Shown here: positions 28,632 through 35,462 of the stretch, in pieces
Position numbering within the stretch: position 1 is the first letter of the stretch
How the letters are laid out: the number at the start of each line of letters is the position of its first letter
Assembly (NCBI RefSeq): GCF_018881575.1
Contig: NZ_JACVQB010000001.1
Coordinates: 730,986 to 794,985 of the forward strand
DNA from: Polynucleobacter sp. UK-Kesae-W10
GTDB taxonomy: Bacteria > Pseudomonadota > Gammaproteobacteria > Burkholderiales > Burkholderiaceae
Direction: 5' to 3'
Length of the DNA: 64,000 bases
Position numbers and translations under genes: made by a program
Notes under the pieces: generated by a model
Seen by the model: the letters and a program-made list of their open reading frames with translations, nothing else
Database searches by the model: none
What the model was told of the DNA's origin: nothing

Positions 28632-29825
28632 ATGGAGCCATTATCCGGATTAAAGGTGATTGAAATGGGGCAGCTGATTGCTGGTCCATTCGCTGCCAAA
28701 ACATTGGCTGATTTTGGGGCCGATGTTGTCAAAATTGAACCGCCTAAAGTCGGTGATGCTTTGCGTAAATGGCGTTTACTGAAAGATGGCACTTCTATTT
28801 GGTGGCAAGTGCAATCACGCAATAAGCGCTCGCTCTCTTTAGACTTGCGACAGGTTGAAGCGCAGGACATCGTACGCACACTCGCCAAAGAAGCCGACAT
28901 TCTGATTGAAAATTTTCGTCCCGGTACTTTGGAGGGATGGGGGCTTGACCCGAATGAGCTACTCAAAATTAATCCACGTTTAATTGTGCTGCGTATTAGC
29001 GGCTATGGACAGACAGGCCCCTATCGAGATAAACCGGGATTTGGCGTTGTTGCCGAAGCCATGGGCGGTTTACGTCATTTGACTGCTGAACCAGGAAGAG
29101 TGCCGGTGCGAGTGGGAGTTAGCATTGGCGATACCTTGGCATCGTTACATGGCGTCATTGGAATTTTGCTGGCGTTACAAGAGCGTCATCAAAGCGGTAA
29201 GGGTCAGGTTATTGATATTGCCTTGTATGAGGCGGTATTTAATTGCATGGAGAGCTTATTGCCGGAGTACAGTGCATTTGGAGAGGTAAGGCAGGCCGCT
29301 GGCAGCGCTTTGCCTGGCATTGCTCCTACGAACGCGTATCTTTGTGCCGATGGAGGCTATGTGTTGGTTGCCGGTAATGGCGATAGCATCTTTAAGCGTC
29401 TCATGAAGTTAATCGGCAGGGATGATTTGGGTAATGACCCAGAGCTAGAAAATAATGATGGACGCGTCAAGCGAGTAGTGGAGCTTGATCAAGCCATTGG
29501 TACTTGGGCGAAGGATCTCACTGCCGACCAAGCTTTAGAGGCTTTAGATTCAGTGGCGGTACCGGCTGGCAGAATTTATACCGTAGCCGATATTGCGAAG
29601 GATCCGCATTACAAAGCAAGAGGCAATATCGAAACGATTCAAATGCGAGATGGCACTAGCGTAGAGGTTCCTGGAGTATTTCCAAAGCTATCCCGCACAC
29701 CTGGCTCCATCAAAACATTAGCTCCGGACATTGGACAAAATACGGAAGAAATATTACGCAGTATCGGCTTAAATGAATCACAGGTAGCCTCCTTAAAAGA
29801 ACGCGGCATTGCCTTCACTAAATAA
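28632..29825 (+). CDS. CaiB/BaiF family (family III) CoA-transferase
   Basis: Family III transferases move CoA between carboxylic acids. The 397-residue protein has the family N-terminus LKVIEMGQLIAGPFAAKTLADFGADVVKIE, the NKRSLSLDLR segment, ENFRPGTLEGWGLD, ISGYGQTGPYRDKPGF, and IAPTNAYLCADGGYV. The position that matches the catalytic Asp of formyl-CoA transferase appears to be Glu200 (ALYEAVFN), which may mark a subfamily. It is followed after 16 bases by an HMG-CoA-lyase-like gene, so it probably activates a branched hydroxy-dicarboxylic acid that the lyase then splits. Substrate is not readable from the sequence. Confidence 0.9.
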   Translation: MEPLSGLKVIEMGQLIAGPFAAKTLADFGADVVKIEPPKVGDALRKWRLLKDGTSIWWQVQSRNKRSLSLDLRQVEAQDIVRTLAKEADILIENFRPGTLEGWGLDPNELLKINPRLIVLRISGYGQTGPYRDKPGFGVVAEAMGGLRHLTAEPGRVPVRVGVSIGDTLASLHGVIGILLALQERHQSGKGQVIDIALYEAVFNCMESLLPEYSAFGEVRQAAGSALPGIAPTNAYLCADGGYVLVAGNGDSIFKRLMKLIGRDDLGNDPELENNDGRVKRVVELDQAIGTWAKDLTADQALEALDSVAVPAGRIYTVADIAKDPHYKARGNIETIQMRDGTSVEVPGVFPKLSRTPGSIKTLAPDIGQNTEEILRSIGLNESQVASLKERGIAFTK

Positions 29826-29841
29826 GTAAGCAAAGATAAAA

Positions 29842-30768
29842 ATGACCAGAATTTATTTCAATGATGTAGTGACCAGAGATGGTTTTCAGATTGAGCCCAA
29901 CTTTATTCCAACTGCCGATAAGGTGCGTCTGATTGATGAAATGAGTCAATGTGGCTTTGCCAAAATTGAAGTCACCTCATTTACCTCGCCTAAGGCTATT
30001 CCGATGCTGCGTGACGCCGAAGAGGTGATGGGAAAGATTCAACGGTTTCCAGGAGTTGAATACACCGTATTGGTGCCTAATCTTAGGGGTGCAGAACGCG
30101 CGCTGGAGTCTCGTGCTGATGAGTTCAATTTGGTGATGTCTACATCTGAAACGCACAATCTAGCGAACTTGCGAATGACCCGTGAAAAAAGCTTTGCAGG
30201 CTTGGCGGAGGTGATTCAGTTCGTGGATGGCAAAACGCCGATCAATGTATCGCTGTCAACCAGTTTTGGCTGCCCTATGGAGGGTGATGTGCCTCAAACA
30301 GTCGTTGAGGAATTTGCTAAGCGTTTTGCGGATTTAGGGGTAAGGGGCATAACCATTTGCGATACCACTGGCATGGCTAATCCAGCTCAAGTCAGTGCCA
30401 TGTCTGAATCCTTGCAAAAATTATTTCCCCATCTTCAGCTCACAATGCATTTTCACAACACGAGGGGAATGGGTTTAGCCAATGTATTGGCAGCAGTTCA
30501 ATCAGGCATCACGCGTTTCGATGGCTCTCTGGGTGGTTTGGGGGGTTGTCCGTATGCACCAGGAGCTAGCGGCAATATTTCTAGCGAAGATGCCATTCAC
30601 ATGCTCGATGCAATGGGTTACAACACCGGTATCGATATACCTAAATTACTCATCTTGGCTCGTGAGTTGCCGACCATCGTTGGGCATACGGTACCGGGGC
30701 AAGTGGCCAAGGCAGGGCGCTCCTGTGACTTGCACCCAGCACCCGAATATGTGGCTGACTTGCGTTAA
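29842..30768 (+). CDS. Hydroxymethylglutaryl-CoA lyase family protein
   Basis: HMG-CoA lyases cleave a 3-hydroxy-3-methylacyl-CoA into acetyl-CoA and a keto acid with a divalent metal. In the 308-residue product the metal ligands and catalytic residues are visible: TRDGFQ (Arg12, Asp13), HFH (His203, His205), the active-site loop GGCPYAPGASGN (Cys236, Asn245). The family usually has HxHDT at the histidine pair; here it reads HFHNTRG. Pairing with a CoA-transferase and a VOC protein suggests meglutol-, citramalate- or similar acid breakdown; which one is inference. Confidence 0.88.
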   Translation: MTRIYFNDVVTRDGFQIEPNFIPTADKVRLIDEMSQCGFAKIEVTSFTSPKAIPMLRDAEEVMGKIQRFPGVEYTVLVPNLRGAERALESRADEFNLVMSTSETHNLANLRMTREKSFAGLAEVIQFVDGKTPINVSLSTSFGCPMEGDVPQTVVEEFAKRFADLGVRGITICDTTGMANPAQVSAMSESLQKLFPHLQLTMHFHNTRGMGLANVLAAVQSGITRFDGSLGGLGGCPYAPGASGNISSEDAIHMLDAMGYNTGIDIPKLLILARELPTIVGHTVPGQVAKAGRSCDLHPAPEYVADLR

Positions 30769-30788
30769 TTCACCTACTTGGAGCGCTC

Positions 30789-31187
30789 ATGATTGATCAC
30801 CTAGACCATCTTGTTTTAACGACTGCCAATGAAGCTGCTTGCGTTGATTTTTATACTCGCGTACTGGGGATGAATTTAGAGTCATTTATTGGCGGCACGC
30901 CGCCGGTTGAGCGCAAGGCATTTAAGTTTGGTAATCAAAAAATCAATTTGCACATCAAGGGTAAGGAATTTGAGCCCAAGGCAAATATTCCTACCCCTGG
31001 TTCTTTAGACTTATGCTTTATTGCGGACTGCCCGCTCACCGAAGTCATTGCGAAACTAGAGAAGGCAGCCTGGCCCATTATTGAAGGGCCAGTCATGCGC
31101 ACGGGTGCGACTGCAAAAATTCATTCAGTCTATGTGCGTGATCCTGATTTCAATTTAATTGAGATCAGTGAAATTTGCCGCAGCTGA
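30789..31187 (+). CDS. VOC-family (glyoxalase/dioxygenase fold) protein
   Basis: A single-domain 132-residue vicinal-oxygen-chelate protein with two beta-alpha-beta-beta-beta modules. Likely metal ligands are in IDHLDHLVLTT (first module) and in the second half NLIEISE. The start lies 20 bases after the lyase stop with a good Shine-Dalgarno (GGAGCG). As third gene of the trio it may be an epimerase or isomerase for the CoA ester or a thioester-processing enzyme; the exact reaction is unknown. The stop is one base away from the convergent Anbu stop. Confidence 0.8.
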   Translation: MIDHLDHLVLTTANEAACVDFYTRVLGMNLESFIGGTPPVERKAFKFGNQKINLHIKGKEFEPKANIPTPGSLDLCFIADCPLTEVIAKLEKAAWPIIEGPVMRTGATAKIHSVYVRDPDFNLIEISEICRS

Positions 31188-31188
31188 C

Positions 31189-32073
31189 TTAGGCTTTTCT
31201 GACGACCTTCTTCTTAGAGCCAGCAGTCTTTTTTGCGGCTGGCTTTGACTTGGTCGCCGGAGTCGCTTTGGGTTTTGGAGGCTGACGGTGAATCGGCACA
31301 GGACCCATCTTTTTGGCTGGTGCAGAGATTGCGCTCGATTTATGGGCGCCGCTCCAGCTAGGTTCTGAAATGGAATTAAAAGCAGCGCGCAGTTTTTCGC
31401 CCCAAAGCTGGTGAATCATCTGGAAATAAGGGTTGGATTCATCCATGGTGACGAGCTTGCTGGCTGTAAGTGAGTTCTTTTCATAAACGAGCAAATCCAA
31501 GGGAAGACCAACCGAGATATTGCTGTTCAGGGTAGAGTCCATCGAAATCAATGCGCATTTGGTTGCTAGATTTAATGGTGTGACGTAGTTCAGTACGCGA
31601 TCCAAGATGGGTTTGCCATATTTAGATTCACCAATTTGGAAATAGCAAGTTTCAGGAGTTGCTTCGATGAAGTTCCCGGCTGAATAAATATTAAATAGCC
31701 TTGGACGCTCATCCTTTACTTGCCCACCAAAAATCAAATTGCAATTGAAATCGATTCCGGCTTTCTCAAGCGCTTTGTTATCGCGATCGAAGACTTGCTT
31801 AATGGCATCACCAACAACTACCGCAGCATCATGGGCGTTATCAACAGTCCACAGATTTTTGCCATTCAAAAGCTGACCTTGTAACAGGATTTCTTTAACG
31901 GCTTGAGTAATTGCCAAGTTACCCGCACTCATGAGGGTGAAAAAACGATCTTGATCCTTTTGAAACAAGGTCATTTTTCTAAAGGTGCCTATCTGGTCTA
32001 CCCCAGCATTTGTTCTGGTGTCTGATAAGAATACGAGACCGTCTTTAAGGCAAATTCCAACGCAATAAGTCAT
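31189..32073 (-). CDS. Proteasome-type peptidase Anbu (COG3484) with a basic C-terminal tail
   Basis: Anbu is a bacterial relative of HslV and of proteasome beta subunits. After removal of Met the protein begins with Thr1, the nucleophile of the family; Asp17 (FLSDTRTN) and a lysine at position 32 (TFRKM) stand where the proteasomal Asp17 and Lys33 are expected. The 294-residue length exceeds the roughly 240-250 residues I expect; the extra about 50 residues are a Lys/Pro/Ala/Ser-rich low-complexity tail (PPKPKATPATKSKPAAKK and on). It is the last gene of a four-gene minus-strand cluster. AAGGAT about eight bases before the ATG serves as ribosome site, and a 6-bp hairpin lies just upstream. 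Confidence 0.88.
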   Translation of the reverse strand: MTYCVGICLKDGLVFLSDTRTNAGVDQIGTFRKMTLFQKDQDRFFTLMSAGNLAITQAVKEILLQGQLLNGKNLWTVDNAHDAAVVVGDAIKQVFDRDNKALEKAGIDFNCNLIFGGQVKDERPRLFNIYSAGNFIEATPETCYFQIGESKYGKPILDRVLNYVTPLNLATKCALISMDSTLNSNISVGLPLDLLVYEKNSLTASKLVTMDESNPYFQMIHQLWGEKLRAAFNSISEPSWSGAHKSSAISAPAKKMGPVPIHRQPPKPKATPATKSKPAAKKTAGSKKKVVRKA

Positions 32074-32134: not shown

Positions 32135-32932
32135 TTAAGCCAATTGTTGGATCGCAATACTGGCGCTGAGCTCTTCTCCGCCGCCGCCAGAGCGCACCCC
32201 TTTGACGGGTGCTGCGGAATAGTAATCGCGGCCAATGGCCAAGCGAATATGGCGTGCATCAATGAGGCAAGCATGCGTGATATCCACACTTACCCAGGTG
32301 CCTTTTTCTATGTCGCTGCAAAAATCAATCCAGGCATGGCTCGCTAGATTAGGAGATTCTTCTGCAAAGAAATAGCCGCTGACGTACCTAGCGGGAATAT
32401 TGGAAGCACGGCAAAGACTGAGCATAATGTGCGCATGGTCTTGGCAGACGCCAGATTTCATGGCAAACGACTGGGCCGCAGTCGTTGCAAAGTTGGTTTG
32501 ACCAGGGGAGTACACAATTAAACCTTGCACTGCTTCAGCGAGTTTTAGTACTTGATCTACTGAATTTTTCTTTGGAATGCTATAAGAAAAATATTCCAAC
32601 ATTTCATCGGTAGGCTCAGTCAGATTGGTTTGTTGCAAAAGATAGTAGGGTGAAACTGCTTTGGCATCATCAGAAAACTCAAATGCGTCATGAGTTTGCA
32701 CCTCGCCCTCAGCCTCAATCATCATCGAGGTGTAAGGAGTCTCTTGAACAAATACACTGCAGTTATTGCCAAATGCGTCAATTGAGCTTGACGCCTTAAT
32801 GGGTGTGCTAATTTTCCATTTATCAATTTGCTGCCCAGCAGTACTGGGCGGGGTCAAGCGCAACTCCTGGATGGAGTAGCGGACCGGTGTTTCATAACGG
32901 TATTCAGTGCGATGGCGGATCTTCAGATGCAT
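32135..32932 (-). CDS. Transglutaminase-like cysteine peptidase family protein
   Basis: A 265-residue protein with an N-terminal beta-rich domain (LKIRHRTEYRYETPVRYSIQ, the family opening) and a transglutaminase core. The Cys-His-Asp triad is visible: Cys in SGVCQDHAHIM, His in LASHAWIDF, Asp a little downstream in SVDITHAC. Relatives act as amidases or peptidases rather than cross-linkers. It sits 17 bases after the alpha-E gene and upstream of Anbu; the conserved grouping suggests it trims or hydrolyses a peptide made by the ATP-grasp protein, which is inference from published comparative genomics of these families. Confidence 0.88.
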   Translation of the reverse strand: MHLKIRHRTEYRYETPVRYSIQELRLTPPSTAGQQIDKWKISTPIKASSSIDAFGNNCSVFVQETPYTSMMIEAEGEVQTHDAFEFSDDAKAVSPYYLLQQTNLTEPTDEMLEYFSYSIPKKNSVDQVLKLAEAVQGLIVYSPGQTNFATTAAQSFAMKSGVCQDHAHIMLSLCRASNIPARYVSGYFFAEESPNLASHAWIDFCSDIEKGTWVSVDITHACLIDARHIRLAIGRDYYSAAPVKGVRSGGGGEELSASIAIQQLA

Positions 32933-32949
32933 ATATTTTTCGTAATACT

Positions 32950-33927
32950 TTAGGCTACTGCCAGTGGAATGAGATAAGCGCTACTGAACTCATCGGCAAT
33001 GTGATTGATCCGTTCTAAAAAGGCTTCAATAAATTCTTCTAAGCCCTGTTCAAACACTTCATCAATGTCGGAATAGTCTAAGCTCGCTTTGAGTTTTCCA
33101 AGTAGGCGCTCAATTTCTTTAGATTGCTGATTCTTCACTTCAGAGATGAGTGGGATGAGTTCATTTACACAGCACACTAAAGAGCGTGGCATTTGCTTAT
33201 TGAAAATCAAGAGCTGCGCAACCTGTTTTGGTGTTACCTGATCTGAATAAATTTGGCGGTAAATCTCAAAGGCGGAAACGGAGCGCAGCAGGGCGGCCCA
33301 GTGATAGAAGTCAAAGAACTCACCATCGGTGCCTTCTTCGGAAGATTTATGAGCGCCCAGCACTTTGAGTGCAGCCTGATCTTCATACTTCGTTTCTAAA
33401 ATTCGGGCGGTGTTATCGGCGCGCTCTAGGAGAGTGCCTACATTGATGAAGTAGAAAGCCTCATTCTTAAGCATCGTGCCGTAGAGAACGCCTCTAAAAA
33501 GGTGGCAACGGTGCTTTACCCACTCCAGAAGTCTGCTGGGATCAGCTTGATGTCGTGCTTCTAAAATGCGTTGCAGTTCAAGCCAGGTCGTATTTTGGGT
33601 TTCCCATACTTCTGAAGTAATTTTGCCGCGAATGACCCGGGCGTTTTCGCGGGCAGCAAACAGACAAGAAACAATGCTGGAAGGATTGCTGGTTTCATAA
33701 ATCATGAAATCCAAGACATTCTCGCGATTAATCACATCATATTTACTGAGAAACGCATCCTCTAGCTTAGAAATGGTTAATAACTTTTTCCAGCTCTGTT
33801 CCAGGAACTCCGCAGGCTGTGGCAGGAGTGAGGTTTGGTGGTTGACATCGAGCATGCGGGCAGTATTTTCTGCACGCTCGGTATAGCGAGCCATCCAATA
33901 TAAGCAATCAGCGGTACGACTTAACAT
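32950..33927 (-). CDS. Alpha-E domain protein (COG2307)
   Basis: An all-alpha protein of 325 residues that begins LSRTADCLYWMARYTERAENTARMLDV, the diagnostic alpha-E opening, with a second copy-like motif later (NVGTLLERADNTARILETKYED). It has no recognisable catalytic residues and is always found with the circularly permuted ATP-grasp gene, here 13 bases upstream. The internal similarity of the two ERAENTARML/ERADNTARIL segments suggests an ancient internal duplication. Biochemical role unknown. Confidence 0.88.
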   Translation of the reverse strand: MLSRTADCLYWMARYTERAENTARMLDVNHQTSLLPQPAEFLEQSWKKLLTISKLEDAFLSKYDVINRENVLDFMIYETSNPSSIVSCLFAARENARVIRGKITSEVWETQNTTWLELQRILEARHQADPSRLLEWVKHRCHLFRGVLYGTMLKNEAFYFINVGTLLERADNTARILETKYEDQAALKVLGAHKSSEEGTDGEFFDFYHWAALLRSVSAFEIYRQIYSDQVTPKQVAQLLIFNKQMPRSLVCCVNELIPLISEVKNQQSKEIERLLGKLKASLDYSDIDEVFEQGLEEFIEAFLERINHIADEFSSAYLIPLAVA

Positions 33928-33940
33928 ATTTACTCTTCCC

Positions 33941-35359
33941 TTATTCCTCTAATACCCAGGTATCTTTAGTGCCGCCACCTTGGGAGGAGTTCACGACTAA
34001 AGAACCTTCTTTAAGGGCAACCCTAGTTAGGCCACCTGGAACCATCTTGATGGTTTTTCCTGAGAGCACAAAGGGGCGTAAATCAATATGTCTTGGGGCA
34101 ACACCAGACTCCACAAATGTTGGGCATGTAGAGAGTGCAAGGGTTGGTTGCGCAATGTACTTATCAGGATTGGCAACTAGATGTGTGCGGAACTCTTCAA
34201 TCTCTGCTTTCGTAGAAGCGGGGCCGACCAACATGCCATAACCGCCAGCGCCATGAGTAAGCTTTACTACCAGCTTCTCTAAGTTGGCTAATGTGTATGC
34301 CAAATCATCGGGCTTACGACATTGGAAGGTGGGCACATTATTGAGAATCGGCTTTTCACCGAGATAAAACTCGATCATCTCTGGAACATATGGATAGATG
34401 GATTTGTCATCTGCAATGCCCGTTCCAATGGCATTGGCTAAGGTCACATTACCAGCACGATGCGCAGATAAAAGTCCGGCTACTCCGAGGGTCGAATCAG
34501 AGCGAAACGCCAATGGATCCAAGAAGTCATCATCAACACGACGATAGATCACATCTACTCGCTCAGGTCCTTGGGTGGTTCGCATAAATACTTGTTCATT
34601 TTTGACAAACAAATCCTTGCCCTCAACCAATTCCACACCCATTTGTTGTGCTAGATAGCTATGCTCAAAGTAAGCGGAGTTATACATGCCTGGAGTGAGC
34701 ACAACAACGTTAGGTTTCTTGACATCATCTGGCTTAACAGACTTGAGGCATTCTAGTAATAAGTCTGGGTAGTGTTCAACCGGAGCAATACGATATTTCT
34801 GAAAGAGATCGGGAAAGAGTCGCATCATCATCTTGCGATCTTCCACCATGTATGACACGCCAGATGGAACCCGTAGGTTATCTTCTAGTACATAGAATTC
34901 ACCTTCGCCGGCGCGCACAATATCAATACCGGCAATTTGCGCATAGATATCGCGCGGCACACTCACATTACGCATCTCAGGACGATATTGCGCATTGTTA
35001 TAAATTTGTTCAGCAGGGACAATGCCTGCTTTGATAATTTCTTCATCGTGATACACGTCATAGATGAAGCGATTGAGCGCTTTTACGCGTTGACGTAAGC
35101 CAGCCTCCAGTTGCTCCCATTCTTTGGCGGTAAAAATGCGTGGTACCTGATCGAAGGGAATAGTCCGCTCGGATCCCAGGTCGTCACCATAGACTGCGAA
35201 GGTGATGCCCACGCGTCTAAAGATGAGGTCCGCTTCAGCGCGCTTCAGTCCCATGAGGGTGTCGCTCTGTTGCTTTAACCAGTTATGAAAAATTTGGTAG
35301 TGGGGTCGCGCCTTACCTGAGGCGTCGAGCATTTCGTCAAAAGGCAATTTCATACTCAT
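33941..35359 (-). CDS. Circularly permuted type 2 ATP-grasp protein (COG2308)
   Basis: Predicted carboxylate-amine ligase, expected to form a peptide or amide bond with ATP. The frame is open to 35425, but I place the start at 35359 (MSMKLPFDEML), eleven bases after AAAGG on the minus strand; the product is then 472 residues. Features: PHYQIFHNWL near the N-terminus, VLEDNLRVPSGVSYMVEDR (conserved core), VDVIYRRVDDDFLDP, and VVKLTHGAGGYGMLVGP towards the C-terminus. It heads the cluster with alpha-E, transglutaminase and Anbu, which together look like a make-and-degrade system for a peptide tag or small peptide. Confidence 0.9.
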   Translation of the reverse strand: MSMKLPFDEMLDASGKARPHYQIFHNWLKQQSDTLMGLKRAEADLIFRRVGITFAVYGDDLGSERTIPFDQVPRIFTAKEWEQLEAGLRQRVKALNRFIYDVYHDEEIIKAGIVPAEQIYNNAQYRPEMRNVSVPRDIYAQIAGIDIVRAGEGEFYVLEDNLRVPSGVSYMVEDRKMMMRLFPDLFQKYRIAPVEHYPDLLLECLKSVKPDDVKKPNVVVLTPGMYNSAYFEHSYLAQQMGVELVEGKDLFVKNEQVFMRTTQGPERVDVIYRRVDDDFLDPLAFRSDSTLGVAGLLSAHRAGNVTLANAIGTGIADDKSIYPYVPEMIEFYLGEKPILNNVPTFQCRKPDDLAYTLANLEKLVVKLTHGAGGYGMLVGPASTKAEIEEFRTHLVANPDKYIAQPTLALSTCPTFVESGVAPRHIDLRPFVLSGKTIKMVPGGLTRVALKEGSLVVNSSQGGGTKDTWVLEE

Positions 35360-35462
35360 CAAACTAATGCCTTTAAGAAGACTGCTTGGAGTGATTTGAA
35401 GCAGCTTGGTGCTGCAATGCACCATAATAGTGCATAAATACTGAACTTAGGCTTTTTACGCC

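Follow-up and report, generated by a model that had tools for sequence, protein, structure and literature searches.

What is the long basic tail at the end of the Anbu protein of Polynucleobacter sp. UK-Kesae-W10, and what could such a tail do for the particle that carries it? The open reading frame at positions 31189-32073 (minus strand) of the window, by which we mean the whole stretch of 64,000 nucleotides analyzed here, translates into a 294-residue Anbu, a proteasome-like split-ring hydrolase. This identity, already proposed in an earlier sequence-only reading of the same DNA, is secured by matches to solved Anbu structures in the PDB, by the invariance of the candidate catalytic residues, and by the genes located upstream. 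The latter are an ATP-grasp, an Alpha-E and a transglutaminase-like gene on the same strand (32135-35425, minus strand), the arrangement of the four-gene Anbu operon described for Y. bercovieri and others.

31189..32073 (-): Anbu gene, 294 aa, stop included (PF00227, 22.3 bits; PDB Anbus, E down to 2.4e-81)
31354..32073 (-): Anbu core, residues 1-240, with candidate catalytic T2, D18 and K33 (invariant in 74 sequences)
31372..31431 (-): long C-terminal helix, predicted at residues 215-234
32135..32932 (-): transglutaminase-like gene of the Anbu operon (PF01841, PF08379)
32950..33927 (-): Alpha-E gene of the Anbu operon (PF04168)
33941..35425 (-): circularly permuted ATP-grasp gene of the Anbu operon (PF14403, PF04174)

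The PDB sequence matches at E ≤ 0.001 consist of five distinct solved Anbu sequences and nothing else, and the score against the Pfam proteasome model PF00227 falls just below the cut-off of 22.4 bits. No NCBIfam model matches the Anbu at E ≤ 0.001, and NCBIfam supplies no name for any of the five operon and junction proteins. Residues M1, T2, D18 and K33 are invariant across 74 aligned sequences, the query among them; the last three correspond to Thr1, Asp17 and Lys32 of the mature protein, whose catalytic roles are described in PMC6376114. The predicted structure and the fold comparison show the fold of proteasome beta subunits together with a long C-terminal helix. Nine Anbu entries are listed in the fold comparison, the best five with Z scores of 33.4-34.9 over 227-241 aligned residues (44-57% identity) and the other four with Z scores of 27.2-27.6, while the top proteasome subunit among the matches listed has a Z score of 22.5. 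According to the structural papers, the C-terminal helices of two Anbu subunits pair into an antiparallel coiled coil in the dimer (PMC5666114). The papers also describe this helix as longer than that of proteasome beta subunits (PMC5666114, PMC6376114), and a mutant with a shortened helix failed to assemble (PMC5666114). The best 20 matches in named genomes have 84-92% identity and come from Polynucleobacter species and from Burkholderiaceae or betaproteobacterial bins.

A length of about 240-250 residues, as in the solved members, is a usual trait that we did not take as defining, and the present protein departs from it. The five solved sequences, 240-251 residues long, align to query residues 1-240 only in the PDB sequence search, and they reach residue 243 at most in the fold comparison (50 rows listed). 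The solved Anbus of Yersinia bercovieri, Pseudomonas aeruginosa and Hyphomicrobium and the designed consensus (PDB 5nyw, 5lox, 5nyj/5nyg and 5loy) thus resemble the query in core fold, candidate catalytic residues and helix, whereas their sequences stop close to where the helix region ends and offer no aligned counterpart of residues 244-294. The 54 residues that follow W240 (241-294, counted on the translation) include 15 Lys or Arg and no Asp or Glu, with 12 of the basic residues among the 32 of segment 263-294. The earlier description of the last 50 or so residues as strongly basic is therefore accurate. The stretch to which it referred, 31189-31350, covers residues 242-294 and the stop. 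The label of low complexity, given at the same time to the whole tail, fits the far part (263-294) but not the near part (241-262), which is a conserved segment. No match to the 54-residue tail was found in Pfam or the PDB at E ≤ 1.

31288..31353 (-): near part of the tail, residues 241-262, gapless in 82 basic-tailed sequences, dN/dS about 0.06
31291..31320 (-): P-box, residues 252-261 (PAKKMGPVPI), predicted to be ordered (pLDDT)
31192..31287 (-): far part of the tail, residues 263-294, rich in Lys, Pro and Ala, with low predicted confidence from residue 271

The occurrence of the tail was surveyed in full Anbu proteins from 265 loci. After removal of identical sequences, the collection comprised 104 proteins from the genus, 23 from other genera of the family, 65 from the order, 27 from the class and 23 from further named relatives; the genus set includes the named loci L001-L051 and L053, which were placed by similarity and several of which are bins. 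A net tail charge of at least +8 was found in 82 of 104 genus proteins, in none of the 23 from other family genera, the 65 from the order or the 23 named relatives, and in one of 27 from the class (L166), where these are counts of proteins sampled rather than unbiased frequencies, as the loci lean to the best matches of each search. The basic tail is specific to the Polynucleobacter lineage, as had been surmised. In a phylum-wide draw of 37 Anbus, two of them from Burkholderiales, a charge of at least +8 occurs once (L319, +8).

Tails as such are more widespread than basic tails. At least 20 residues follow the tryptophan in 94 of 104 genus proteins, 23 of 23 from other family genera, 29 of 65 from the order, 4 of 27 from the class and 23 of 23 named relatives, and in four proteins of the phylum-wide draw, two of which (L306, L307) belong to the order or family itself. 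Most Anbus sampled outside the Burkholderiaceae- and Oxalobacteraceae-type groups end less than 20 residues past the W240 point. The protein is thus longer than expected in comparison with the solved Anbus but not in comparison with the other genera of its own family, and the notion of a tail added to a bare Anbu has to be given up, given that other Burkholderiales Anbus bear a neutral tail of similar length. An Anbu match was present in 119 of 151 genus genomes searched, so that the protein is common in the genus and not universal.

A further claim concerned a very compact junction with the convergent VOC gene downstream, and the two stops are indeed separated by exactly one base (31188).

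30789..31187 (+): convergent VOC/glyoxalase-type gene (PF00903)

A gene that ends one base before the next is what an accidental extension might look like, and the tail could in that case be an artefact of annotation or assembly, created by read-through past the true stop or by a frameshift. We regard this as scarcely credible, since 82 unique sequences, drawn from many genomes, share the frame, the near part is gapless, non-synonymous change lies well below synonymous change, and basic tails occur without a VOC gene downstream. The one-base gap is peculiar to this genome. Of 80 named loci, a single one (L028) has a VOC match next to Anbu; three of the 80 (L014, L018 and L050) have fewer than 200 bases downstream and could not show such a neighbour. 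Where 1500 or more bases follow a basic-tailed Anbu (44 loci), the distance to the next mechanically called open reading frame is 7-295 bases. The compact junction was also considered as the cause of the tail and rejected, because the tail is present in other genomes with different downstream sequence. In the window, the VOC gene is preceded by a putative CoA-transferase-like and a putative HMG-CoA-lyase-like gene (28632-31187, plus strand, VOC included). Matches to all three adjoin Anbu in the same single locus of the 80, and the block may represent a local insertion or replacement.

The two parts of the tail are conserved in different ways. Across the 82 basic-tailed genus sequences there is not a single gap in the near part, and its best kept positions are I249 (82 sequences), K254 (79), V259 and P260 (78 each), P252 and K255 (74 each) and G257 (73). 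The ratio dN/dS rises from about 0.015 in the core (residues 1-228) to about 0.06 in the near part and about 0.26 in the far part, values that come from a simple count over 271 close, mutually dependent pairs at dS of 1.1-1.5 and of which only the rank order is to be trusted. Judged from these substitutions, the near part appears to be under strong selection. The far part is 12-39 residues long in the same 82 sequences (whole basic tails, 34-61 residues) and consists of 32% Lys, 15% Ala and 10% Pro, where the count starts at position 23 of the tail. The charge of the far part amounts to 0.37 ± 0.05 per residue with a minimum of 0.24, and acidic residues account for 17 of 2399 positions. A neutral simulation of the far part gave a mean charge of 0.09 at 1.0 substitutions per site and 0.07 at 1.4; the observed minimum was reached by 31% of simulated tails at 0.3 substitutions per site, 5.1% at 1.0 and 2.8% at 1.4. 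Sequence and length of the far part vary, and its charge is kept.

An AlphaFold2 model of a single chain, built with 74 sequences, gives pLDDT values of 73, 82, 90, 67, 53 and 57 for successive blocks of ten residues over 241-294, including 82 at 251-260 and 90 at 261-270. Residues 251-270 are predicted to be ordered without regular secondary structure, like a peptide lying on the core, and the end of the tail beyond residue 270 is predicted to be disordered. The most confident block, 261-270, extends into the variable far part, where entropies of single columns reach up to 3 bits at 264-270, and for this reason the order predicted there should be viewed with caution as its confidence may be overstated. 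In addition, the model being that of a single chain, the ordered stretch might occupy a site that is filled by a neighbouring subunit in the particle. A model of the Anbu from an Oxalicibacterium bin (L062; 35 sequences) yields pLDDT values of 47, 48, 74, 56, 42 and 36 over the same blocks, so that block 261-270, which contains most of a PLRIQPP stretch, is the most confident tail block there as well (74 versus 36-56 for the others).

The far stronger constraint on the near part than on the far part, together with the high confidence predicted over residues 251-270, would fit a reading in which the near segment with its P-box is the working part, a lineage-specific clamp that stabilizes the subunit, the dimer or the surroundings of the active site. 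The basic end would then be a spacer, for solubility or of entropic nature, with its charge kept only against aggregation or self-cleavage. A subclade of the genus also speaks for such a clamp: the neutral-tailed Anbus of the P. rarus and P. kasalickyi type (12 rows of the tree described below) stop 24-30 residues beyond the helix region, immediately behind a motif like GPIP or EPIP. However, the charge of the far part is kept against neutral expectation, a spacer would not need the near-absence of acidic residues, and related genera keep a motif near the end of the arm. We consider the clamp possible but somewhat doubtful.

The motif in related genera became apparent in a set of long tails from outside the genus, made up of the 57 proteins with tails of at least 35 residues among 111 unique proteins of the family, order and named-relative sets. 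The pattern Q.[LVIF][AT][QGAEN], which resembles Q-x-L-A-Q, occurs in 52 of these 57 tails (mean 3.5 and maximum 10 in 500 shuffles) and P[VLIM][RVM][VIA] in 38 of 57 (mean 2.1, maximum 7), while the box [MLI][GSEV].[VI].[IVL] occurs in 89 of 94 tailed genus sequences (mean 1.8 and maximum 6 in 200 shuffles); all three patterns were picked after viewing the tails, and the shuffles therefore overstate the surprise. The Q motif, for which the tails of L062 (4721-4876), L130, L071 and L217 are examples, starts 10-17 residues from the C-terminal end in 43 of the 52 tails and was found in none of the 94 tailed genus sequences. The genus box aligns beside the P-box of other Burkholderiales Anbus, and its place and alignment make it likely that the two are homologous. 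The Q-x-L-A-Q-like motif is probably a docking motif for a hypothetical partner.

Anbus with neutral tails from Ralstonia, Herminiimonas, Undibacterium, Duganella and relatives resemble those of Polynucleobacter in that the same tryptophan is followed by an arm of about 50-65 residues. They have a P[VIL]R[VI]..PP-type box in place of the Polynucleobacter GxVPI, and they differ in having a net charge near 0, a Q-x-L-A-Q-like motif near the C-terminus and no lysine-rich end. On these sequence comparisons, the tail is most likely the Polynucleobacter version of a C-terminal arm common to Burkholderiaceae- and Oxalobacteraceae-type Anbus.

The history of the arm was followed on a tree of 153 core sequences, built without the tails. 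It includes 31 of the 82 basic-tailed genus sequences (30 chosen at random and that of the window) and about half of the further named relatives, and it was made by a quick method with a midpoint root for drawing, leaving 49 of 150 inner forks open. Basic- and neutral-tailed rows of the genus, 44 in all, form one clade with SH-aLRT support of 100. Within it, the subclade of 12 rows with neutral tails of 24-30 residues contains P. rarus, P. kasalickyi and bins, and the remainder is basic-tailed except for L119 (genome G103), where a TGA codon at the conserved tryptophan ends the protein ahead of the tail and the tail frame remains open beyond the stop. The Anbu of L119 may be a naturally tail-less variant or a gene beginning to decay. 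In eight other genus genomes (L186-L193) the Anbu belongs to another clade and ends exactly at the tryptophan before the tail; in a ninth (L194) it ends two residues after the tryptophan and is placed beside a row of another family. The fewest changes among short, long and basic states on the tree number 7, and the tree gives no direction of change.

Because of the stop at the base of the tail in one genome and the absence of the tail from other genomes of the genus, the tail would seem to be dispensable at least in the genomes without it, and to be modulatory rather than essential. As for the suggestion that it directs the oligomer, an essential role in assembly is unlikely, as the dimer helix precedes the tail and as Anbus known from the literature assemble in its absence. 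A docking site of the tail on the core was sought at the positions conserved in 161 tailed proteins, by checking them in two tail-less groups (8 and 2 rows) placed among these on the tree. Positions 182 (Leu to Ile) and 214 (Asn to Asp) were changed wholly or partly in both groups; the substitutions are conservative, the same letters are common in other tail-less Anbus, and no site is singled out.

Basic disordered tails are well known on bacterial proteins generally, and the question arises how far the Anbu tail stands out in its own genome. A net charge of at least +15 in the last 54 residues is found in 2 of 427 mechanically called proteins (464 kb of the same genome), namely Anbu and GlmU, an enzyme of cell-wall precursor synthesis. 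At least 8 lysines in the last 30 residues occur in 5 of 804 proteins (864 kb): GlmU, a 102-residue HC2 histone-like protein, Anbu, a 136-residue protein and an HU-type protein. The Anbu tail is not a chance composition. Topoisomerase I has 7 lysines in its last 30 residues. The ends of HC2 and topoisomerase I resemble the Anbu tail in being rich in Lys and Ala with few or no acidic residues, whereas the Anbu tail starts with a specific conserved near segment and has no family match. No match of the Anbu tail to an HC2 or histone H1-like profile was found in Pfam at E ≤ 1, while the HC2 protein of this genome matches PF07382 at 1.4e-10.

The GlmU of this genome (L273:9108-10628, minus strand, G000:C1) carries a lysine-rich C-terminal tail with a charge of +21 in the last 54 residues. 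The survey of GlmU covered 20 of 21 genus genomes searched, and in 16 of the 20 the charge of the last 45 residues is at least +10, with a tail rich in Lys, Ala and Val. The four GlmU proteins without a lysine tail (G003, G005, G006 and G015) have charges of +6 or +7 and end at residue 455-461. The Anbus from three of these four genomes (L205, L191, L192) also lack the basic tail: in G005 and G006 the protein has no tail at all, in G003 its tail is neutral and 30 residues long, and no Anbu match was found in G015. In G001, G010 and G018 the GlmU tail is present and no Anbu match was found. Both tails seem to follow lineage, which weakens the argument that the tail serves Anbu alone.

These data bear on the explanation that lysine-rich tails are a habit of the lineage, grown on a few proteins and tolerated, with no role specific to Anbu. 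The shared distribution in GlmU and Anbu, the range of 34-61 residues among the basic tails and the one genome in which a stop lies at the base of the tail are all consistent with it. On the other hand, such tails are rare in the part of this genome that was sampled, the five proteins that have them include HU-type and H1-like proteins, and the dN/dS of the far part and its kept charge indicate selection. We therefore hold a mere habit of the lineage to be unlikely.

The explanation that we find best, and put forward tentatively as plausible rather than secure, is that the tail works as a multivalent electrostatic tether built on the Polynucleobacter version of the Burkholderiales arm. The P-box stretch (residues ~251-270), predicted to be ordered in the manner of a peptide lying on the core, would let the arm leave the particle from a fixed point. 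A split ring of 12-14 subunits would carry 12-14 such arms with some 180-210 net positive charges, and jointly these could keep the particle at an acidic partner or at a polyanionic surface, be it nucleic acid, polyphosphate or membrane, or feed it from there. Nucleic acid, membranes and an acidic partner had been named in the earlier reading, and binding to any of them is possible. Where the arm of related genera would end in a docking motif of the Q-x-L-A-Q type, that of Polynucleobacter would end in a polycation instead. The tethering or addressing of the particle may accordingly differ between Polynucleobacter and its relatives. The occurrence of similar tails on HC2 and topoisomerase I speaks slightly for a nucleic acid target and that on GlmU speaks against it; the composition of the tail does not point to nucleic acid, since the tail of GlmU is just as basic. 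Polyphosphate, a membrane and an acidic partner are no less possible as putative targets.

An acidic partner of the tail was sought within the operon by comparing net charges of operon proteins between basic-tailed and other loci among the 80 named loci, leaving out proteins whose match starts after residue 15, and no consistent acid shift was found there. The median charges were -8 (48 proteins from basic-tailed loci) versus -7.5 (32 from other loci) for the transglutaminase-like protein, -10 (45) versus -8 (29) for Alpha-E and -2.5 (24) versus -12.5 (4) for ATP-grasp. The idea that the arms are transglutaminase substrates, with the Gln motif in relatives and the lysine-rich end here, was given little weight, as the Anbu of Y. 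bercovieri has the operon without such a tail and as the pull-down of the Y. bercovieri transglutaminase was attributed to bead binding (PMC6376114). According to the same paper, pull-downs with the Yersinia Anbu, the solved sequence of which lacks such a tail, revealed no specific partner in its operon.

The substrates and interactors of Anbu are named as an open task in PMC5666114. Among the matches listed from the open-licence literature, the titles and beginnings of abstracts contain no mention of Anbu tails. We also speculate, at longer odds than for the tether itself, that Burkholderiales Anbu particles carry exchangeable "address arms" composed of a P-box anchor and an end that names the target. 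The Q-x-L-A-Q motif would then serve a protein partner in most related genera sampled, and the polycation of Polynucleobacter would moor the particle to the nucleoid, ribosomes or polyphosphate. If this rather improbable scheme were true, the arm would be a first handle on the site of work and the substrate of Anbu. A short motif conserved in the tailed Anbus of Burkholderiales could serve as bait, the Q motif near the arm end in related genera may be a more useful lead than the lysine-rich tail, and a single genus provides natural Anbu forms with and without the basic tail.

According to PMC6376114, a Ralstonia eutropha Anbu with a C-terminal His tag did not assemble, and the P. aeruginosa and two Cytophaga Anbus also failed to assemble in the same hands. 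Other Ralstonia Anbus, those sampled here, are tailed, and this gives at most a hint that the null result may merit a second look.

In three genus genomes the Anbu match is in two pieces. In G017 and G106 the two are neighbours on one contig, like a broken gene; in G052 they are located at the ends of two contigs. Finally, one locus in the collection (L050, CALPOM020000191.1) is titled as a Thermoflexus bin and contains a Polynucleobacter-like Anbu operon (64% identity) that falls among the Polynucleobacter-like rows of the tree; the bin is probably contaminated.
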